Source of the DNA: Rhodococcus sp. OK519
GTDB lineage: Bacteria; Actinomycetota; Actinomycetes; Mycobacteriales; Mycobacteriaceae
Reading direction: 5' to 3'
Assembly: GCF_003051005.1 (NCBI RefSeq)
Contig: NZ_QAOW01000001.1
Span: 558,001 to 622,000 of the forward strand
Length of the DNA: 64,000 bases
The notes under the pieces are model-generated. The model made no database searches. It was not told where the DNA came from and saw only the letters and a program-made list of their open reading frames with translations. The translations under genes and the position numbers were made by a program. Shown here piece after piece: positions 6,819 through 30,749 of the stretch (position 1 is its first letter; each line of letters starts with the position of its first letter).

Positions 6819-6835
6819 ATACCCGTAGGGGGTAT
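6819..6835. promoter_or_regulatory. CsoR/CstR-type operator before copB
   Basis: ATACCCGTAGGGGGTAT is a near-palindrome of the ATACCC-n-GGGTAT type bound by DUF156 (CsoR-family) repressors. It lies just before the P-type ATPase start, and a -10-like TACGTT (6835-6840) overlaps its end. Similar sites at 23483, 25578 and 27928 precede genes of the sulfur block. Confidence 0.7.
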
Positions 6836-6842
6836 ACGTTCG

Positions 6843-9011
6843 ATGAGTATGAAGCCAGGTGAAGAAGCAGTCCATGGGCACCATGTGGCCGAGTCACCCG
6901 GAAATTCGGGTCACGAAGGACACTCGGGTCACGGCGAGCATTCGGGCCACGCAGGTCACGGTGATCATGCCGACCACGTCGGTCAGTTCCGGCGCCTGTT
7001 CTGGATCATGCTGATCCTCTCCGTCCCGGTGGTGGGCGCGAACATGATGTTCGCCGACCTTGTCGGATACGACCTTCCGGACAACCCTGCGGTGGAATGG
7101 ATTTCGCCACTGCTGGGCACGGTCATGTTCGTGTGGGGCGGACGGCCCTTCCTGACCGGAGCGGTCAGCGAGGTCCGTTCTCGTCAGCCCGGCATGATGC
7201 TGCTGATCGCGCTCGCGATCACTGTCGCGTTCGTGTCGTCGTGGGGTTCGAGTCTCGGCATCCTCGGTCACGATCTCGACTTCTGGTGGGAGTTGGCCCT
7301 CCTCATCGTGATCATGCTGCTCGGTCACTGGATCGAGATGCGGTCGCTGGGGCAGGCGTCGAGCGCGCTCGACTCGCTCGCCGCCCTACTGCCCGACGAG
7401 GCCGAACGCATCGGCGACGACGGCGCCGTCACCACCGTCTCGACGTCCGACCTGGCGGCCGGCGACATCGTCATGGTCCGCCCGGGCGGGCGCATCCCGG
7501 CGGACGGCCGGATCGTCGAGGGCGCCGGTGACCTGGACGAATCCATGATCACCGGCGAGTCGCGGACAGTGCGCCGGGAACTGGGCGACGCGGTCGTCGC
7601 GGGCACGGTGTCGACGGACTCGGCGCTGCGCGTCGAGATCACCGCGGTCGGCGACGACACCGCGCTGGCCGGCATTCAACGTCTGGTCGCCGAGGCGCAG
7701 AACTCGTCGTCGCGGGCGCAGGTCCTCGCCGACCGGGCCGCCGCGATGCTGTTCTGGTTCGCTCTGGGCGCCGCGGTGATCACGCTGCTGGTGTGGTCGA
7801 TCTTCGGCACACCGGACGAGGCGATCACCCGCACCATCACGGTCCTGGTCATCGCGTGTCCGCACGCGCTGGGCCTGGCGATTCCGCTGGTCGTGTCGAT
7901 TGCGACCGAGCGCGCCGCGCGGGCCGGGGTGCTCATCACCGATCGCCGGGCACTCGAGGCGATGCGCACCGTCGACGTCGTGCTGTTCGACAAGACCGGC
8001 ACCCTCACCAAGGGTGAACCGGCGCTGGTCGCGGTCGGTGCGGTCGGTGCGGTCGGTGCGGTCGGTGCGGTCGGTGAGGTCGGCGACGCCGAGGGGGCGG
8101 ACGAAGACGTGATCGCGCTCGCCGCCGCGGTGGAACGCGACAGCGAACATCCACTGGGACGCGCGATCGTCGCGGCCGCCGAGCACCGGGAACTGCGGAT
8201 CCCGCAGGCCACGGAGTTTCAGGCGCGCAACGGTGTCGGTGTCACCGCGACCGTCGACGGCGCGACGGTGAGCGTCGGCGGGCCGGGCATGCTCGACAGC
8301 CACGGCGCGTCCGCGCTGCCCGAGAGTGAGGAGTGGGCGGCCCAGGGATCGACGGTGCTGCACGTGCTGCGGGACGGGCGCGTGATCGGCGCGGTAGCGC
8401 TGGCCGACGAGATCCGACCCGAGTCGCGCGACGCGATCGAGGCGCTTCATGCCCGCGGGGTGAAGGTCGTGATGCTCACCGGAGATGCGCAGACCGTCGC
8501 GCGGGCGGTCGGCGACGATCTCGGCATCGATGACGTGATCGCCGGGGTGCTGCCGCAGGACAAGGGCGCCAAGGTCAAGGAACTGCAGGCCGCGGGACAT
8601 CGGGTCGCGATGGTGGGTGACGGCGTCAACGACGCGCCCGCGCTCGCGCAGGCCGACGTCGGGATCGCGATCGGCGCCGGCACCGACGTCGCGATCGCGT
8701 CGGCCGGGGTGGTTCTGGTCGGCGACGATCCCCGCGCGGTCGCATCGGTGATCGAGTTGTCGCATGCGACCTACCGGAAGATGGTGCAGAACCTGGCGTG
8801 GGCGGCGGGCTACAACGTGATCTCCGTGCCGCTCGCGGCCGGTGTCCTGGCCCCGGTCGGGTTCGTGCTGCCGATGGAAGTGGGCGCGATTCTGATGTCG
8901 GCGTCGACGGTGGTGGTCGCGGCCAACGCGCAGTTGCTGCGCAGACTGAACCTCGCGCCGCAAGACGTGACCCGAGCGGTTCCCGAACGAGAGCACGACT
9001 ACGCTCGATGA
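6843..9011 (+). CDS. copB: CopB-type (P1B-3) heavy-metal translocating P-type ATPase
   Basis: The product has 722 residues. A His/Gly-rich N-terminus (about residues 10-40: repeated SGH, HGEH, HGDH) replaces the CxxC metal-binding domains of CopA. The transport motif is CPH (C339-P340-H341), diagnostic of the CopB subgroup. The phosphorylation site DKTGT starts at D383, and TGES, TGDA and GDGVND motifs are present. It exports copper or silver at the plasma membrane. A 9-base repeat in the nucleotide-binding region encodes GAV repeats. ATG 6849 is an alternative start that would give a leaderless mRNA. The stop overlaps the next gene (ATGA). Confidence 0.94.
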   Translation: MSMKPGEEAVHGHHVAESPGNSGHEGHSGHGEHSGHAGHGDHADHVGQFRRLFWIMLILSVPVVGANMMFADLVGYDLPDNPAVEWISPLLGTVMFVWGGRPFLTGAVSEVRSRQPGMMLLIALAITVAFVSSWGSSLGILGHDLDFWWELALLIVIMLLGHWIEMRSLGQASSALDSLAALLPDEAERIGDDGAVTTVSTSDLAAGDIVMVRPGGRIPADGRIVEGAGDLDESMITGESRTVRRELGDAVVAGTVSTDSALRVEITAVGDDTALAGIQRLVAEAQNSSSRAQVLADRAAAMLFWFALGAAVITLLVWSIFGTPDEAITRTITVLVIACPHALGLAIPLVVSIATERAARAGVLITDRRALEAMRTVDVVLFDKTGTLTKGEPALVAVGAVGAVGAVGAVGEVGDAEGADEDVIALAAAVERDSEHPLGRAIVAAAEHRELRIPQATEFQARNGVGVTATVDGATVSVGGPGMLDSHGASALPESEEWAAQGSTVLHVLRDGRVIGAVALADEIRPESRDAIEALHARGVKVVMLTGDAQTVARAVGDDLGIDDVIAGVLPQDKGAKVKELQAAGHRVAMVGDGVNDAPALAQADVGIAIGAGTDVAIASAGVVLVGDDPRAVASVIELSHATYRKMVQNLAWAAGYNVISVPLAAGVLAPVGFVLPMEVGAILMSASTVVVAANAQLLRRLNLAPQDVTRAVPEREHDYAR
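8031..8084 (+). repeat. 9-base tandem repeat inside copB
   Basis: There are five identical copies of GCGGTCGGT from 8031 to 8075, followed by a degenerate sixth (to 8084). They encode a run of Gly-Ala-Val triplets about 15 residues after the DKTGT motif, at the start of the nucleotide-binding domain. The unit length preserves frame. Confidence 0.95.
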
Positions 9012-16443: not shown

Positions 16444-18564
16444 TCAGTGTCCGAGGCCGACGCGTTCGTGCACGCGGCGCATCCACTTCGGTGCCCACCA
16501 GTTGGCCTCACCCATGAGTTTGACCACGGACGGCACCAGCAGCATCCGCACGACGGTGGCGTCGATGATGAGCGCGAGGATCATGCCCACGCCGAGGAAC
16601 CGCATGATCGACAACCCCGACACCGTGAACGCACCGGTCACTACGATCAGCAGCATCGCGGCGGCGGTGACGACCCGGCCGGTGCGTTCGGCGCCGATCC
16701 GTACGGCCTCCTCGGTGGTGGCGCCGGCGGCCCGGGCCTCCACCATGCGCGACATCAGGAACACCTCGTAGTCGGTGGACAGCCCGAACACGACCGCGAG
16801 GATGAGCACCACGAATGTCGCCTCGAGTGGTGCCGGTGTCACCCCGAGTAGTTCCGCGCCGTGGCCCTCCTGGAACACCCAGGTGAGGACGCCGAACGTC
16901 GCGGCGAGGCTCAGGCCGGCCATCGCCACCGCCTTGATCGGCAGCACCACCGACCCGAATGCGAGGAACATCAGCACCAGCGTGGAGCCCACCATGATCG
17001 CGATCATCGCGGGCAGCCACTTCACGATCGAGGCGTTGCCGTCGTCGACGGTTGCCCGGCCGCCGCCGACCAGCAGTTCGGTGCCCGATGGCGCATCGAT
17101 CGCCCGCAGCCCCTGCACGGCGTCCCCGGCCGCGGCGCCCTCGACGCCTTCCGCATAGAGCGCCTGGATCGCGGTGACGTCGTTCTCCGTCGCGAGCACG
17201 ACGGCCTGTGCGATCCCGTCCACCTGCTTCGCCGCCGCGACGACCTTGGACAGATCACCCGGCGAGGCCGGTGCGCCGTCGGGGCCGCGCAGCACCAGCG
17301 TCGCGCCCTCGCCGGTGGACGGGAACTCGGTGGCAAGGGTCTCGGTCGCGATGCGCGCCGAGTCGTCGACGGGCAGTGCGGTGTAGGTGATCTCGCCGAG
17401 CGTCGCCTTCGTCAGCGGCGCCGCGAGCACCAGCAGGCCGGCGGTGATGCCCACCGCGACGACTGCCGGACGGCGCATGACGCGCGTGACGACCCCGCCC
17501 CAGAATTGCCGGGCGCGTTCCTCTCCGCGCTGCGCCGCCCCCTTCCGCCACGACAGCGCGTCGATGCGGTGCCCGAGGATTGCCAGCAGCGCCGGCACGA
17601 CGGTCAGCGACAGCACGGCTGCGCCCGTCACGGCGGCGATCGCGCCGAAGCCGAGCGAGCGGATCACGGCCTGCGGGAACACGAGCATGCCCGCGAACGC
17701 GCACGCCAGCAGTAGACCCGAGAACAGCACGGTGCGCCCGGCGGTGAGCACGGTCCGGCGGGCCGCGTCGGCGGGTTCGGACCCGTTGGCGAGTTCCTCG
17801 CGGAAGCGGCTGACGATGAACAGGCCGTAGTCGATCGCGAGGCCCAAGCCGATCAGTGATGCGACGTTGAGGGCGAACGAACTGACCTCGGTGACCTCGG
17901 TGAGCAGACGCAGGATGCCGAGTGAACTGAGCACCGAGAGCAGGCCCACGAACACCGGGACCGAGGCCGCGACCAGGCCGCCGAAGACGAACACCAACAG
18001 CACCAGCGTGATCGGGATCGCGATCGCCTCGGCCCGGATGAGGTCGGCCTGCAGCCGATTGCTGAGTGAGACGCCGACCACGGACCCGCCCGCGAATTCG
18101 GATTCCACGCCGTCGATTTCGAGTTTCGGCAGCAGATCCGCGAAGTTGGCCACCGTCACGTGTGCGTCGGGTGAGAGCACGATGGACGCGGCCACCTTGG
18201 CGCCGTCGCTCGACAGCAGCAACTGTTTCGCCGGTGGAACCGCGGACCAGTACGAGGTCACCGACTGCGTCGGCACCTCGGCGCGGAATCGATCGAGCGT
18301 CTCGGTGACGGCCGGCTCCAGGTCGGCGAGCGTCTTGCCGGTCGGCACCGTGTAGATCGCGACGATGTCGGGGTCCTGCCGGCCGAAGGTGTCGTCGACG
18401 ATCCGCGACACCTCCGCCGACTCGCTGCCCGGGTCGGTGTACCCGCCAGAGCTGAGCTTGGAGAACACGCCGGCGCCCCACACTCCCGCGACGATCACGG
18501 CGATCAGAACCACCGCCACTACCCACCACTTGCGTGCAACGACGATCGAGGCCCAGCGTGTCAT
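16444..18564 (-). CDS. MMPL-family RND transporter
   Basis: The product has 706 residues. It is a typical MMPL layout: helix 1 near residues 12-35, a large periplasmic loop, a block of helices around 175-370 with the GLGLAIDYGLFIVSRFREEL signature, a second loop, and a second helix block containing VFGLSTDYEVFLMSRMVEAR. These transporters export lipids or small hydrophobic molecules using proton motive force. It follows the AcrA1-like gene's position upstream on the same strand (51 bases apart), so the two may be linked in lipid metabolism and export. The substrate is unknown. Confidence 0.92.
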   Translation of the reverse strand: MTRWASIVVARKWWVVAVVLIAVIVAGVWGAGVFSKLSSGGYTDPGSESAEVSRIVDDTFGRQDPDIVAIYTVPTGKTLADLEPAVTETLDRFRAEVPTQSVTSYWSAVPPAKQLLLSSDGAKVAASIVLSPDAHVTVANFADLLPKLEIDGVESEFAGGSVVGVSLSNRLQADLIRAEAIAIPITLVLLVFVFGGLVAASVPVFVGLLSVLSSLGILRLLTEVTEVSSFALNVASLIGLGLAIDYGLFIVSRFREELANGSEPADAARRTVLTAGRTVLFSGLLLACAFAGMLVFPQAVIRSLGFGAIAAVTGAAVLSLTVVPALLAILGHRIDALSWRKGAAQRGEERARQFWGGVVTRVMRRPAVVAVGITAGLLVLAAPLTKATLGEITYTALPVDDSARIATETLATEFPSTGEGATLVLRGPDGAPASPGDLSKVVAAAKQVDGIAQAVVLATENDVTAIQALYAEGVEGAAAGDAVQGLRAIDAPSGTELLVGGGRATVDDGNASIVKWLPAMIAIMVGSTLVLMFLAFGSVVLPIKAVAMAGLSLAATFGVLTWVFQEGHGAELLGVTPAPLEATFVVLILAVVFGLSTDYEVFLMSRMVEARAAGATTEEAVRIGAERTGRVVTAAAMLLIVVTGAFTVSGLSIMRFLGVGMILALIIDATVVRMLLVPSVVKLMGEANWWAPKWMRRVHERVGLGH

Positions 18565-23482: not shown

Positions 23483-23498
23483 ATACCCCCTGGGGTAT
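23483..23498. promoter_or_regulatory. CsoR/CstR-type operator overlapping the promoter of the sulfur block
   Basis: ATACCCCCTGGGGTAT is a near-perfect palindrome 30 bases before the GTG of the flavoprotein gene. The -10-like TATAGT at 23496-23501 overlaps its right end, the expected position for a repressor site. A DUF156 repressor is encoded at 27969 behind a related site. Confidence 0.82.
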
Positions 23499-23527
23499 AG
23501 TTGATCGCAACATCGAGGAGGTAGATC

Positions 23528-25183
23528 GTGAAGGTTGTCATCGTCGGGGGTGTCGCCGGCGGAATGTCTGCGGCCACTCGCATGCGTCGGCTGGACGAGT
23601 CGGCGGAGATCGTCGTCTTCGAGCGCGGTGCGCACGTGTCGTTCGCGAACTGCGGCCTGCCGTACTACGCCGGTGGCGTCATCGAGGACCGTGACGAGCT
23701 ACTGCTGCAGACGCCGGAGAGTCTCGGCGCCCGCTTCCGTCTCGACGTCCGTGTTCGCAGCGAGGTCGTCGCGATCGACGCGGACGCCCGCACCGTCACG
23801 GTTCGCAACCTCGAATCGGGGGACACCTACGTCGAGAGCTACGACGAACTGGTCCTGAGCACCGGCGCCAGCCCCATCGTGCCGCCGTTGCCCGGCGTCG
23901 AACGCGCCCTGATCCTGCGTGATGTCGAGGACGTCGACCGGCTGGTGGCGCAGATCGAGTCAGCGCAGACGTCCGGGGCGCCCAGCGCTGTCATCGTCGG
24001 CGCCGGATTCATCGGCGTCGAACTGGCCGAGAACCTGCGTCACCGCAATCTCGACGTCACAGTCGTCGAGCTTGCCGATCAGGTGCTGGCCCCGCTCGAC
24101 CCGGAGATGGCGGCTCCCGTCGCCGATCGCATGCGCGAGAACGGGGTGCGCCTCGAACTCGGCACCCAGCTCACCTCGATCGGTGCGACCACCGCCGAAC
24201 TGGCGGATGGGCGCACCGTCCCCGCCGACGTCGTCGTCATGGCGATCGGCGTCCGGCCCGAGACCGCGCTCGCCACGATGGCCGGGCTGACGGTCGGGGA
24301 GCGAGGCGGCGTCGTGGTCGACGACCAGATGCGCACCTCCGTCCCGCACATCTTCGCGGTCGGCGACGCCGTCGAGAAGCGTGACGCGGTCGGCGGTGGC
24401 GTCGCGATGATCCCGCTCGCCAACCCGGCGAACCGGCAGGGTCGTCTCGTTGCCGACGTCATCGCCGGACGTCCGGTGCGTGCGACGGCGTCGTCGGGCA
24501 CCGCGGTCGTCGGGGTGTTCGGACTGATCGTCACGGCCACCGGCTGGAACGAGAAGCGACTGCGCGCCGCGGGCCGTCCCTACCGGGCGATTCACACGCA
24601 TCCGCAGTCGCACGCCGGGTACTACCCGGGCGCCCAGCAGATGGCGATCAAGCTGCTCGTCGATCCCGAGTCCGACGCCATCCTCGGCGCCCAGGCCGTC
24701 GGCGGCGAGGGCGTGGACAAGCGCATCGACATCATCGCCACAGCGATGGCCGGTGGGCTCACCGCGTCGGACCTGGCCGACCTCGAACTGGCGTACGCGC
24801 CGCAGTTCGGTTCGGCCAAGGATCCGGTGAACATGCTCGGCTACATCGCCGACAACCTGCGCACCGACTCCACCCGCACGGTCCAGTGGCACGAACTCGA
24901 TACCCTGGTCGCCGGTGGTGCGTCGCTCGTCGACGTCCGCACCGCCGACGAGTTCGCGGCCGGCGCCATCCCCGGCGCCGTGAACGTCCCGCTCGATGAG
25001 CTCAGGGATCGGGTCGGCGAACTGCCGGCCGGTGACCTGATCGTGCACTGCCAGGTGGGCCAGCGCGGCCACACTGCGGCACGCCTGCTCGGACAGTTGG
25101 GGCGCCCTGCGGCCAACCTCGACGGCGGCTACAAGACGTGGGATGCGGGTCTGCGCGCGAACGCGCCGGTCGGCGTCTCCTGA
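23528..25183 (+). CDS. CoA-disulfide reductase / rhodanese fusion (persulfide reductase type)
   Basis: The product has 551 residues. GTG start is preceded by GAGGAGG. The FAD motif is VVIVGGVAGGMSAATRMRRL, the single active Cys42 lies in FANCGLPYYAGG, and the NADH motif is VIVGAGFIGVELAENL. A dimerisation domain follows, then a C-terminal rhodanese domain (about 455-545) with catalytic loop HCQVGQRGH (Cys508). This is the CoADR-Rhd architecture, known to reduce CoA persulfide/disulfide and polysulfide with NAD(P)H. It is the first gene of the putative CstR-controlled block, followed by a stand-alone rhodanese 25 bases later. Confidence 0.93.
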   Translation: MKVVIVGGVAGGMSAATRMRRLDESAEIVVFERGAHVSFANCGLPYYAGGVIEDRDELLLQTPESLGARFRLDVRVRSEVVAIDADARTVTVRNLESGDTYVESYDELVLSTGASPIVPPLPGVERALILRDVEDVDRLVAQIESAQTSGAPSAVIVGAGFIGVELAENLRHRNLDVTVVELADQVLAPLDPEMAAPVADRMRENGVRLELGTQLTSIGATTAELADGRTVPADVVVMAIGVRPETALATMAGLTVGERGGVVVDDQMRTSVPHIFAVGDAVEKRDAVGGGVAMIPLANPANRQGRLVADVIAGRPVRATASSGTAVVGVFGLIVTATGWNEKRLRAAGRPYRAIHTHPQSHAGYYPGAQQMAIKLLVDPESDAILGAQAVGGEGVDKRIDIIATAMAGGLTASDLADLELAYAPQFGSAKDPVNMLGYIADNLRTDSTRTVQWHELDTLVAGGASLVDVRTADEFAAGAIPGAVNVPLDELRDRVGELPAGDLIVHCQVGQRGHTAARLLGQLGRPAANLDGGYKTWDAGLRANAPVGVS

Positions 25184-25208
25184 ACACAGAATCTCCGGAA
25201 GGAACCCC

Positions 25209-25517
25209 ATGCGCGAAATTGACGTGACCGAACTCGAAGCGGTGCTCGCCACCGGCGCCCCGCTCGTCGACGTCCGCGAGGCGGACGAGTTCGCCGAGGC
25301 GCGGGTGCCCGGCGCGGTCTCGATCCCGCTCAGCGAGTTCGTCGCTCGCGTCGACGAGGTTCCGGCCGACGGCACCGTGTACATGATCTGCGCGGCCGGT
25401 GGACGCAGCGCCCAGGCCGCGCAGTACCTCGAGGCCCGTGGCGTCGACGCCGTCAACGTCGCCGGCGGCACCATGGCCTGGCTGCAGTCCGGCCGCGCTG
25501 TCGAGTCCGGCAACTAG
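25209..25517 (+). CDS. Stand-alone rhodanese-like sulfurtransferase
   Basis: The product has 102 residues from ATG 25209, preceded by GGAAGGAA. It is a single rhodanese domain (LVDVREADEFAEARVPGAVS) with active-site loop MICAAGGRS and Cys61. It would carry sulfane sulfur as a Cys-persulfide. It follows the CoADR-rhodanese gene closely and ends before a strong terminator, making a two-gene operon. The extra rhodanese next to a fused one suggests sulfur hand-off. Confidence 0.92.
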   Translation: MREIDVTELEAVLATGAPLVDVREADEFAEARVPGAVSIPLSEFVARVDEVPADGTVYMICAAGGRSAQAAQYLEARGVDAVNVAGGTMAWLQSGRAVESGN

Positions 25518-25525
25518 CTCCACCC

Positions 25526-25566
25526 GAACCCGGTCGAAACCGAGTGGTTCTCGACCGGGTTCTCTT
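25526..25566 (+). terminator. Intrinsic terminator after the rhodanese gene
   Basis: A perfect 12-base stem (GAACCCGGTCGA with TCGACCGGGTTC) has a 13-base loop that itself contains AACC/GGTT pairing, followed by CTTTT. It ends nine bases after the rhodanese stop begins the gap and separates the operon from the MMPL gene. Confidence 0.88.
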
Positions 25567-25577
25567 TTCACTTCCAT

Positions 25578-25593
25578 ATACCCCCTCCCGTAT
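25578..25593. promoter_or_regulatory. Degenerate CsoR/CstR-type site before the MMPL gene
   Basis: ATACCCCCTCCCGTAT keeps the left half-site and the terminal GTAT of the operators at 23483 and 27928, but the right half reads CCC instead of GGG. It lies 117 bases before the transporter ATG, directly after the terminator. It is weaker than the other three sites. Confidence 0.5.
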
Positions 25594-25603
25594 TTCCCCT
25601 TCG

Positions 25604-25666
25604 CGCGTTCTGCGCACTTATCGCGCGAATCCCGCCCCGGAAACCGCGACAAGTGCGCAAAACGCG
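25604..25666. repeat. Extragenic palindromic repeat, copy 1
   Basis: Inverted arms of 22 bases (25604-25625 and 25645-25666, two mismatches) with core TGCGCACTTATCGCG pairing CGCGACAAGTGCGCA surround a 19-base spacer. A related palindrome with the same TTTTGCGCACTTG core occurs at 45623-45682. It lies between the rhodanese terminator and the MMPL gene. Confidence 0.85.
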
Positions 25667-25710
25667 GGGGAGTCGGACCAGAAGAAACACGACTACGAAA
25701 GGCATCTCCC

Positions 25711-28235
<2,525 letters not shown>

Positions 28236-28286
28236 GCGCCGGGCCGAACACCGGTAAACCGAACGGACAACCGTAAGGAGTCACTG

Positions 28287-28673
28287 ATGGAACTGGGAAT
28301 CTCGACGCGTCTGAACACCGAGTTCGACGACGCCATCGCCAAGACACGGGCCGCCTTGCAGGAGCAGGGTTTCGGTGTCCTCACCGAGATCGACATGCAG
28401 GCGACGCTGAAGGCGAAGATCGGCGCCGAGATGGAGCAGTACGTCATCCTCGGTGCCTGCAATCCCCAGCTCGCGCACCGCGCCGTCGGCGTCGACCGGC
28501 AGATCGGTCTGCTGCTGCCGTGCAATGTCGTCGTCCGCGCCGACGGTGACGGCGTCGTCGTCGAGGCCATGAACCCGGCGCTCATGGTCGAGGTGACCAA
28601 GGAGCCCGGGCTCGAGGCGGTCGCCGCCGAGGCGACTACCCGCCTCCAGGCCGCGATCGACGCCCTGTCCTGA
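28287..28673 (+). CDS. DUF302 protein
   Basis: The product has 128 residues from ATG 28287 with AAGGAG upstream, 51 bases after the repressor gene. The DUF302 signature is present: FDDAIAKTRAALQEQGFGVL, EIDMQATLKAK, YVILGACNPQLAHRAV, GLLLPCNVVV. Two cysteines sit in the conserved ACNP and LPCN motifs. No enzymatic role is established for the family, but DUF302 proteins recur beside sulfur-oxidation and CsoR-type genes. It is probably in the same operon as cstR. Confidence 0.93.
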   Translation: MELGISTRLNTEFDDAIAKTRAALQEQGFGVLTEIDMQATLKAKIGAEMEQYVILGACNPQLAHRAVGVDRQIGLLLPCNVVVRADGDGVVVEAMNPALMVEVTKEPGLEAVAAEATTRLQAAIDALS

Positions 28674-28699
28674 GATTCGCGGGTCCGATCGATTCCGGC

Positions 28700-29764
28700 T
28701 CAGGCCGGAGCAGGCAGCGCCCTGGTACGAACCCGGCGTGCGGTGTGCACCGCGACCACACACCAGGCGACTACCAGGGCGCACAGCAGTCCGGCCGACA
28801 GCAGACGCGGAATCTCGAAGTCGCCCGCGACACCGAATGCCCCCATCCCGACCGCGCAGGCGCCGACCGGGAAGGTGAAGCTCCACCAGCTCATGGTGAA
28901 CGTCAGCCCGCTGCGGAACGCGCGCACCGTGACGACACCGACCGCGGTGAGGGCGACGATCATGATCGTTCCCATGAACAGTCCGTAGCCCAGGCCGAAC
29001 ACGTGCAGGGTGTGCGCGACGCCGCCGCCGACGGCGTGCTGCGCCGCGGTGCCGAGCAGGTTCGCTGCCGCGACGGACTGACCCACGATGCCGAGCGGAA
29101 TCCACATCGTCGGCAGAGCCTGCAGCGGCGGCAGCCCGCTCTCGCTGATCTCCCGCGTGACCATCGCGACGATGAACAGCGCGAACACCAGTGCGAGCGT
29201 GAACAGCGCATAGCAGCCGGTCAGCATCGCGACCCGCGGCCAACCCTCGGGCAGATGGTTCACCAGCGCGGCACCGGTCGCGGCCGACACCATCGGCGGG
29301 ACCACCGGCATCAGCCAGGCAGGGGTCGGGTTGCCGCGATCGGCGACGGCACGCAGTCGCATCCCCATCACCGCTGCGGTCAGCAGGCCGGCGGCGGTGC
29401 CGATCGCCCACAGGGCTCCCGCGATCCCGAACGCGAGACTCGGTGCGATGACGGTCGAGCCCACCGCGGCGGTGCCGGCGCCGACGGTGAGCACCGCCAT
29501 CGGCAGCGCTCCGTAGAACGGGAACATCGTGACGCTGCGCGCGTACCCGCGGGCGTGCTCGGTGTGCCGGATCCAGTGGACGGCGAACGCGGCCACGAGC
29601 ACCGCGAGCAGGGCCACCGCGAGAATCCAGAACGTGAGCGCGATTCCGCGTCGCCCCGGCAGATTCACCGGAAGCGACGACGTGGCGACGGCGATGATGC
29701 CGGTACCCATCACGACGGCGAACCAGTTGGGTGTGAGGTGGGCGAGACGTGGAGCGGTAAGCAT
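28700..29764 (-). CDS. TDT/SLAC1-family transporter (TehA/Ssu1-like)
   Basis: The product has 354 residues from ATG 29764, with about ten membrane helices. The N-terminal LTPNWFAVVMGTGIIAVATS is the hallmark of the tellurite-resistance/dicarboxylate transporter family, which includes sulfite exporters (Ssu1), malate transporters and plant SLAC1 anion channels. Its position next to the persulfide block makes sulfite or another anion a reasonable guess, but the sequence does not fix the substrate. It is divergent from a LysR regulator, with a LysR-type site almost touching its start codon. A longer N-terminal extension into that regulator is unlikely. Confidence 0.88.
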   Translation of the reverse strand: MLTAPRLAHLTPNWFAVVMGTGIIAVATSSLPVNLPGRRGIALTFWILAVALLAVLVAAFAVHWIRHTEHARGYARSVTMFPFYGALPMAVLTVGAGTAAVGSTVIAPSLAFGIAGALWAIGTAAGLLTAAVMGMRLRAVADRGNPTPAWLMPVVPPMVSAATGAALVNHLPEGWPRVAMLTGCYALFTLALVFALFIVAMVTREISESGLPPLQALPTMWIPLGIVGQSVAAANLLGTAAQHAVGGGVAHTLHVFGLGYGLFMGTIMIVALTAVGVVTVRAFRSGLTFTMSWWSFTFPVGACAVGMGAFGVAGDFEIPRLLSAGLLCALVVAWCVVAVHTARRVRTRALPAPA

Positions 29765-29765
29765 G

Positions 29766-29782
29766 AATACAACTCTTGTATT
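29766..29782. promoter_or_regulatory. LysR-type operator between the transporter and its regulator
   Basis: AATACAACTCTTGTATT is a perfect 7-base inverted repeat with a 3-base centre and contains the LysR T-N11-A pattern (TACAACTCTTGTA). It starts two bases upstream of the transporter ATG and lies 74 bases before the divergent LysR gene. Confidence 0.7.
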
Positions 29783-29855
29783 TTTACGTCTTTCCCGGTA
29801 GGAGTCTTGGCCTGGATGGGGTACAAACACCGTTTGTGGGTCTAGCCTTGGTGGT

Positions 29856-30749
29856 ATGCCGCTTTCGAACCGCGTACCCGAACTCGCCGCGCTGGATGTG
29901 CTGGTCGCAGTGGGCAGGCTCGGCAGCATGGGGGCGGCGGGACGCGAGCACGGACTGAGTCAGCAGGCCGTCAGCGCTCGGGTGCGATCCGCCGAACGGC
30001 AGCTCGGGATCCGGGTGTTCGATCGCGGTGCGGGCGGTGTCCAGCCCACCTCCGAGGGGGCACTGATTCTGGAGTGGGCGTCGGCGATCCTCGACTCCGC
30101 CGAGGAACTGGCGTCCGGGGTGGCCGCCCTGCGCGGCGAGCGGGACGCCAATCTCACCGTGGCCGCGAGCATGACGATCGCCGAATACCTCGTTCCGGGC
30201 TGGACGGTCGCGATGCGCCGCAAACACCCCACCGTCGTCACATCGGTGCGACTGCTGAACTCCACCGACGTCGCCGCCCAGGTGCGGGCCGGTGAGGCCG
30301 ATCTCGGATTCGTCGAAGGGCCGGTCGCCCCGGACGGTCTCCGATCCGTCGAAGTCGCCCACGACGAACTGGTCGTGATCGTCCCGCCCGGGCACAAGTG
30401 GATCGCGCGGGCGCCCATCGACACCGGCGAACTCGCGGCGACGCCGCTGATCCAGCGGGAGCCCGGATCCGGCACCCGCACCACCCTCGAACATGCGGTG
30501 CCCGGCTGCGTGGAACCGCTGCTCGAGCTCACGTCGTGCACCGCGGTCAAGGCCGCCGTCGTCGCCGGAAACGCGCCGGCGGTCGTCTCGTCACTCGCGG
30601 TCGAGGCCGATCTGCACGACGGACGGCTGGCATCCGTTCAGGTCGACGGCCTGCACATGCCGCGACGACTCCTCGCGGTGTGGGACGGATCCCGCGGACT
30701 GCGCGGCGCCGCACGCGACTTCCTCGACATCGCGCGCGGCGGCTGCTGA
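29856..30749 (+). CDS. LysR-family transcriptional regulator
   Basis: The product has 297 residues. The N-terminal winged HTH (LAALDVLVAVGRLGSMGAAGREHGLSQQAVSARVRSAERQLG) is followed by an effector-binding domain (about 95-290). It is divergent from the TDT transporter and probably controls it through the palindrome beside the transporter start, a standard arrangement for LysR regulators. Homologous arrangements pair such regulators with sulfite or anion exporters. The ligand is unknown. Confidence 0.92.
   Translation: MPLSNRVPELAALDVLVAVGRLGSMGAAGREHGLSQQAVSARVRSAERQLGIRVFDRGAGGVQPTSEGALILEWASAILDSAEELASGVAALRGERDANLTVAASMTIAEYLVPGWTVAMRRKHPTVVTSVRLLNSTDVAAQVRAGEADLGFVEGPVAPDGLRSVEVAHDELVVIVPPGHKWIARAPIDTGELAATPLIQREPGSGTRTTLEHAVPGCVEPLLELTSCTAVKAAVVAGNAPAVVSSLAVEADLHDGRLASVQVDGLHMPRRLLAVWDGSRGLRGAARDFLDIARGGC

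Follow-up and report, generated by a model that had tools for sequence, protein, structure and literature searches.

A candidate CstR-type persulfide regulon with an MMPL transporter as a probable member in Rhodococcus sp. OK519

Gene content of the block

The DNA analysed was a 64-kb stretch of the 5.28 Mb genome of Rhodococcus sp. OK519 (contig NZ_QAOW01000001.1, positions 558,001 to 622,000; the window), and motif scans covered either this window or the entire genome, as stated. A 5-kb block within it probably forms the core of a persulfide regulon under a CstR-type repressor, with an MMPL transporter as a member; the probability of this reading is put at about 0.7. The block lies on the plus strand and opens with operator O1, followed by a gene for a coenzyme A (CoA)-disulfide/persulfide reductase fused to a rhodanese, the CoAPR type (CoADR-rhodanese; 23528-25183; Pfam Pyr_redox_2 and Rhodanese), and a gene for a single-domain rhodanese with Cys61 (25209-25517; PF00581). 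A hairpin, operator O2 and the gene for a 721-residue MMPL transporter of the RND superfamily come next (25711-27876; PF03176, 236 bits). Operator O3 then precedes the gene for the 88-residue CsoR-family repressor (27969-28235; PF02583, 80.4 bits against a cut-off of 22.8) and that for a DUF302 protein (28287-28673; PF03625), which starts 52 bp past the repressor gene and is probably co-transcribed with it. A preliminary description of this DNA had grouped these genes with one for a TDT/SLAC1 transporter, and all six were located at 23528-29764.

The hairpin, 3′ of the rhodanese gene, has a U-rich tail (25526-25562, −28 kcal/mol, z −4.9) and is probably an intrinsic terminator, so that the MMPL gene probably needs a separate promoter. 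In a simple promoter and terminator consensus scan no sigma-70-type promoter was listed, and neither was this hairpin.

The only cysteines of the CoADR-rhodanese are C42 and C508. It scored 456.1 bits against TIGR03385, under the cut-off of 578.8, and is therefore described as a homologue with the CoAPR-type domain fusion that is not certified by that model. The CoAPR of Enterococcus faecalis uses C42 and C508 and is derepressed by CstR, according to passages of PMC9405070.

Operator sites

Matches to ATACC-N6-GGTAT with at most one mismatch were found at three places in the window. O1 (ATACCCCCTGGGGTAT, 23483-23498) is exact and lies at −45 to the CoADR-rhodanese start, O2 (ATACCCCCTCCCGTAT, 25578-25593) has one mismatch and lies at −133 to the MMPL start, and O3 (ATACCCCTGCGGGTAA, 27928-27943), also with one mismatch, lies at −41 to the repressor start. 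The mean in shuffled sequence was 0.13, and three sites were reached in 0 of 100 shuffles. The same form, given as ATACCn6GGTAT, is the sulfane-sulfur operator of Streptomyces coelicolor ScCsoR, both cysteines of which are needed for the response (passages of PMC7533328).

The preliminary description had placed ATACCC-n-GGGTAT sites before the flavoprotein and repressor genes and a degenerate copy before the MMPL gene. These positions held, with the sites in the N6 form; a single-nucleotide spacing did not, giving no match at up to two mismatches. It had also counted four sites, of which three were found. The pattern ATACCC-N4-GGGTAT at up to three mismatches gave 13 matches against 7.2 expected, and the extra loose matches near the block (28157 and 29842), which resemble chance, were rejected as a fourth operator.

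The sites recur at corresponding places in Prescottella. The O1 sequence is identical at −45 in 11 other loci of this group and is also present at −28 in a twelfth, where the start was inferred in a frameshifted assembly. Between −41 and −47 to the repressor gene, 15 of 15 loci (the window, 13 others and one paralogue) carry a site that departs from the pattern by one mismatch at most. At the place of O2, ATACCCCCACCCGTAT is present in 10 of the 11 other loci that carry the MMPL gene, and 11 of the 12 MMPL loci, window included, have a one-mismatch O2-like site before that gene.

Relative to the MMPL start, five sister loci have the operator at −40 to −44 and one has it at −80; in the window and a further four loci it is farther out, at −129 to −148. 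The added leader length in the window makes room for an inverted pair of REP-like repeats (25604-25666) between O2 and the MMPL gene. This repeat has 96 genome matches at up to three mismatches, a consensus near CGCGAYAAGTGCGCAAAACGCG, and is often paired at 41 bp; the pair is placed outside the regulon mechanism.

The repressor and its likely signal

Among the 88 residues of the repressor the only cysteines are Cys35 and Cys64, and there is no histidine. The cysteine spacing is that of solved CsoR-family chains, and both cysteines and Gly60 are kept in the aligned orthologues; Gly60 presumably occupies the position of the histidine ligand of copper CsoR. The protein thus has the features of the CstR class, namely a PF02583 domain, a cysteine pair without histidine and an N6 operator before sulfur genes, and its putative targets include sulfurtransferases, persulfide enzymes and an exporter. 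The Cys-His-Cys Cu(I) site of a copper CsoR is absent, and the protein's own operators are N6, not N7. A formaldehyde sensor of the FrmR type was rejected (29.9 bits against the curated model's cut-off of 133).

One further CsoR-family member is encoded in the genome, beside copZ-like and P-type ATPase genes, both read from sequence. Its gene is preceded by TACC-N7-GGTA in 14 of 14 Prescottella genomes, the copper neighbours being checked in the window's own genome only. A genome search with TACCC-N3-GGGGGTA (N7), which is narrower than all N7 variants and so is not a census of such sites, gave three places, all before copper genes. One is in the window (TACCCGTAGGGGGTA, 6820-6834), 8 bp before a His-rich P-type ATPase open reading frame (6843-9011); the others lie before csoR itself and at C2:319172, shortly before a 69-residue copZ-like open reading frame. 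In this genome, therefore, N7 appears to pair with copper and N6 with sulfur. In line with the persulfide regulon of the preliminary description, the repressor is very probably a reactive-sulfur sensor of the CstR type rather than a copper sensor, which is further consistent with the dioxygenase-rhodanese and TauE genes near its orthologues (see below).

Sites elsewhere in the genome and genus

Over the whole genome, ATACC-N6-GGTAT at up to one mismatch matched 31 places, against 6 for a reversed-pattern control, and 3 of the 31 fall in the block. Three sites are exact: O1, one before a rhodanese-DUF2892 gene pair (L063) and one before an open reading frame for a 52-residue Cys-rich protein (L062). 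DUF2892 is the YgaP membrane domain (PF11127). No Pfam match was found for the Cys-rich protein at E up to 1. It begins MCYPVTC (for example L062, 5772-5927, minus strand), shares the operator and is often encoded beside MMPL, as is DUF2892 (L063, 6428-6685).

In the 14 Prescottella genomes exact sites number 51, where the reversed pattern gave 2. By their neighbours, 44 of these were assigned: 14 to CoADR, 13 to rhodanese-DUF2892 or DUF2892, 14 to the Cys-rich protein, 2 to an MMPL-CstR paralogue pair and 1 to a gene resembling sulfide:quinone oxidoreductase (SQR). The last is in the Prescottella-group genome G013 (L110); its product scored 202 of 525 bits against the SQR_III model, and its best structure matches are sulfide:quinone oxidoreductases. 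In the window's genome no exact site was seen before an SQR-like gene. A full-length dioxygenase-rhodanese was likewise not found in that genome, where the best matches are single domains. In Rhodococcus erythropolis MI2 an organic disulfide induces a cluster of SQR and dioxygenase-rhodanese genes, according to passages of PMC5157978.

Association of MMPL with the repressor and its operator

Of 301 genomes of the window's family, 243 have the repressor at E ≤ 1e-15. Forty repressor loci, chosen from 37 of the family's genomes, were compared: MMPL is present in 21, dioxygenase or dioxygenase-rhodanese in 15, TauE in 13 and a DUF302 match in 31. Of the 21 MMPL loci, 17 have neither dioxygenase nor TauE and 4 have both; 11 loci have dioxygenase, accompanied by TauE or not, but no MMPL, one has CoADR alone, and 7 have none of these. 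A locus that holds just a 42-residue piece of MMPL (L147) was scored as lacking it.

The association was also followed from the transporter. An alignment of repressor-linked MMPL copies was used as the query, and the 80 best-matching named records (from Rhodococcus, Nocardia, Gordonia, Williamsia and others) were taken. CstR is encoded nearby in 75 of these, a proportion inflated because the query was built from copies beside CstR, DUF302 in 71, DUF2892 in 43 and the Cys-rich protein in 23. One locus had too little upstream sequence and was left out of the site count; within 450 bp upstream of MMPL a site with at most one mismatch is present in 76 of the remaining 79, and is exact in 59. When the upstream stretch is shortened to 250 bp, 53 of the 79 relatives have an exact site and 72 have one with at most one mismatch; the corresponding figures are 0.0 and 0.1 for shuffled sequence and, among 309 random windows drawn from these loci, 1 and 2. 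Exact sites precede MMPL in Nocardia and Gordonia records, and an O2-like form, ATACCCCC-N-CCCGTAT, is present in 20 of the 80 loci. Five loci with ATACCG- or ATACCA-type sites (L079, L082, L090, L093, L100) were compared with the query proteins only. Gene offsets and sites in L173 (a record under the name Kitasatospora arboriphila) are the same as those in L181 (Williamsia muralis), and L173 may hold foreign DNA or reflect a recent transfer.

In a class-wide search with the window's MMPL protein alone as the query, 36 of 394 genomes yielded a relative at E ≤ 1e-150. In 27 of 29 further loci from this set at least one partner gene is present within about 1.5 kb, some of these partner matches being weak, at only 31-39% identity.

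Within the host genome a site precedes one of six MMPL genes, namely that of the block. A second MMPL gene in the window (16444-18564, minus strand) is nearer to MmpL3 (624 bits, cut-off 1400) and has no site before it. In the Prescottella genome G008 the MMPL gene is gone from the main cluster, but a second locus encodes MMPL (78%), a CstR paralogue (79%) and DUF2892, with exact sites before MMPL and CstR. In R. erythropolis NBRC 15567 (L285), dioxygenase-rhodanese, the Cys-rich protein, MMPL, CstR, DUF2892, DUF302 and TauE are encoded on one strand within 6 kb. Exact sites lie ahead of the dioxygenase-rhodanese gene and of CstR; two more one-mismatch matches there resemble chance, and no SQR match was found in this locus. 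From the recurrence of the operator before MMPL relatives in many genera and the presence of MMPL at about half of the repressor loci, the transporter is judged to be a probable member of the regulon, as the preliminary description had suggested.

The MMPL protein

An AlphaFold2 model of the MMPL protein was obtained with a mean predicted local distance difference test score (pLDDT) of 81.6. Foldseek placed MmpL3 first (TM-score 0.84, 24-25% identity), then MmpL4/5, and matches 1-33 were all MmpL3/4/5 or entries of that family. A profile search of the PDB likewise matched MmpL3, a lipid exporter, and MmpL4/5, which export siderophores. Both MMPL alignments show two invariant Asp-Tyr pairs, D265-Y266 and D612-Y613; in MmpL3 the proton relay consists of such pairs. 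The MmpL3-like fold and the invariant pairs make it very probable that the protein works as an active pump, driven by protons, with a lipophilic or amphiphilic substrate. It was rejected as the MmpL3 trehalose monomycolate exporter itself (209.5 bits against the NCBIfam cut-off of 1400), although it resembles the mycobacterial MmpL3 and MmpL4/5 proteins in fold, core length and match to the MmpL3 profile.

The TDT/SLAC1 and LysR genes

Beyond DUF302 the next genes are those for the TDT/SLAC1 transporter (28700-29764, minus strand; PF03595) and, divergent from it, a LysR regulator (29856-30749, plus strand; Pfam). The membership of TDT/SLAC1 in the block that had been proposed was not borne out: no site with at most one mismatch precedes its gene in the window scan, the gene is divergent from its own LysR gene, and it was rejected as a CstR target. 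The NCBIfam models nearest to the LysR protein are a selenium-metabolism LysR and YeiE, both far under cut-off. LysR, rather than CstR, is more likely the regulator of TDT, and the two genes (28700-30749) may form a separate sulfite-export unit. The palindrome ATACAA-N3-TTGTAT in the TDT-LysR gap of the window was not found in 14 other loci (L033-L046), and no conclusion is drawn from it.

Proposed mechanism and alternatives

In unstressed cells the repressor would block the promoters at O1-O3 and at the sites elsewhere. By analogy with ScCsoR (passages of PMC7533328), persulfides or polysulfides would modify Cys35 and Cys64, the repressor would leave the DNA, and the reductase, rhodaneses, DUF2892, DUF302, Cys-rich protein and pump would be made. 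The CoADR-rhodanese and the rhodaneses would move and reduce sulfane sulfur, which DUF2892 and DUF302 may pass on or bind at the membrane. The proton-driven MMPL protein may then clear the inner membrane of a lipophilic product derived from sulfur, which could be elemental sulfur, long polysulfides, or a lipid or thiol in persulfidated form; the pump would replace or supplement TauE, the sulfite exporter found in other CstR regulons. A lipophilic sulfane-sulfur product is thus the presumed substrate, and the pairing of CstR with MMPL across many relatives suggests that cells expel a fat-soluble product derived from sulfur. A more specific proposal is put forward tentatively and is judged rather improbable as a whole: that MMPL serves specifically to export zero-valent or sulfane sulfur (S8, long polysulfides, persulfidated lipids or thiols), is fed by rhodanese and DUF2892/DUF302, and belongs with the undescribed 52-residue Cys-rich protein to a persulfide-defence module that is widespread among Actinomycetes.

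Several observations weigh against the regulon with MMPL as a member. A full MMPL is missing from 19 of the 40 repressor loci. Of the 29 class-wide loci, 13 have a CstR-like gene and 10 have an N6 site close to the start of MMPL, and in family f29 the gene company is kept with a site in only 1 of 17 loci. In Prescottella, 7 of the 51 exact sites have no assigned target, and 1 of the 12 MMPL loci (L042) has no site, in an assembly that carries frameshifts. The window's own MMPL site is asymmetric. A bulk lipid role is also possible for the pump, since lipid and siderophore export are the roles for which MMPL proteins are best known. In the Prescottella defluvii record (L042/L169) several cluster genes are frameshifted and the MMPL operator was not found, possibly through sequencing error.

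The lipid role is the basis of the alternative that survives best, in which the regulon is as proposed but persulfide stress damages or remodels the envelope and MMPL restores it by exporting an envelope lipid, without handling sulfur. The structures closest to the pump are those of a lipid exporter, MmpL3, and of siderophore exporters, MmpL4/5, and the 80 best-matching MMPL records come mostly from mycolic-acid genera. Against this, the relatives are not confined to the window's family: families f19, f21 and f29 have them too, as do Prauserella and an Aeromicrobium metagenome-assembled genome, both presumed to lack mycolates. The genes that accompany MMPL at the locus are sulfur genes, no search having been aimed at lipid-synthesis genes. 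An envelope function is a serious candidate, yet an unlikely one.

Distinctly less probable is that the repressor responds to another thiol-reactive stress (hypochlorous or hypothiocyanous acid, nitroxyl or organic disulfides) and not to sulfide-derived persulfide. Nitroxyl also induces the CstR targets of Staphylococcus aureus, but itself perturbs cellular persulfides (passages of PMC5480029), and the target genes here are ones that handle sulfane sulfur.

That MMPL is a bystander of a regulon made up only of CoADR-rhodanese, rhodanese, repressor and DUF302, the site at 25578 being chance or decayed, is very improbable. The CGTAT half of O2 and the loss of MMPL from the G008 cluster would fit such a view; the asymmetric form, however, is kept in the 10 sister loci and 20 named loci given above, exact sites precede MMPL in Nocardia and Gordonia, and the separate MMPL-CstR-DUF2892 locus of G008 has exact sites. 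A copper-responsive CsoR governing a copper or metal stress operon is the least credible reading of all, for although the Pfam family is shared, CsoR operators are alike and a copper CsoR is encoded in the same genome, the repressor has no histidine, its sites are N6 where all three N7 sites found precede copper genes, and its orthologues accompany dioxygenase-rhodanese and TauE.

Relation to known systems

The ScCsoR circuit of S. coelicolor (pdo, tauE, rhod) is alike in having an actinobacterial two-cysteine sensor and the same 16-bp operator, and differs in its targets, a dioxygenase-TauE unit and a rhodanese with no MMPL in the passages of PMC7533328. The CstR of S. aureus, which controls tauE, cstA, cstB and sqr, is also a two-cysteine CsoR-family repressor with sulfurtransferase targets and an exporter, which agrees with the parallel drawn in the preliminary description; the exporter there is TauE, where an MMPL pump is encoded here (passages of PMC5480029). 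The CstR-CoAPR system of E. faecalis shares the type of first target and the numbering of its catalytic cysteines, and the passages of PMC9405070 that deal with it make no mention of MMPL, DUF302 or a Cys-rich protein. In the SUL modules of Arthrobacter plasmids a CsoR regulator, two rhodaneses, a sulfur dioxygenase, TauE, DUF302 and a small protein are clustered; the further transporter is of the major facilitator type, and the MMPL protein of that paper lies in an unrelated module (passages of PMC6305408). Passages on the proteomics of Rhodococcus qingshengii (PMC8557817) and on the transcriptomics of Mycobacterium abscessus (PMC6839843) yielded nothing usable on expression of the regulon. 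Among the open-licence literature matches listed, subscription journals being outside the scope, no paper was found in which an MMPL pump is connected with CstR or persulfide.

The one-base difference in operator spacing that appears to split copper from sulfur control in one genome is a testable specificity rule. With DUF302, a lone YgaP-type membrane domain and a small Cys-rich protein without a Pfam match under one operator, the functions of these proteins become directly testable. Known CstR regulons combine persulfide enzymes with an exporter of small anions, and a conserved, proton-driven pump of the lipid-exporter class would be the new element. If the proposal is true, part of the sulfane-sulfur load would be hydrophobic and would leave through the membrane, and the regulon would provide a first physiological handle on an orphan clade of MMPL transporters.

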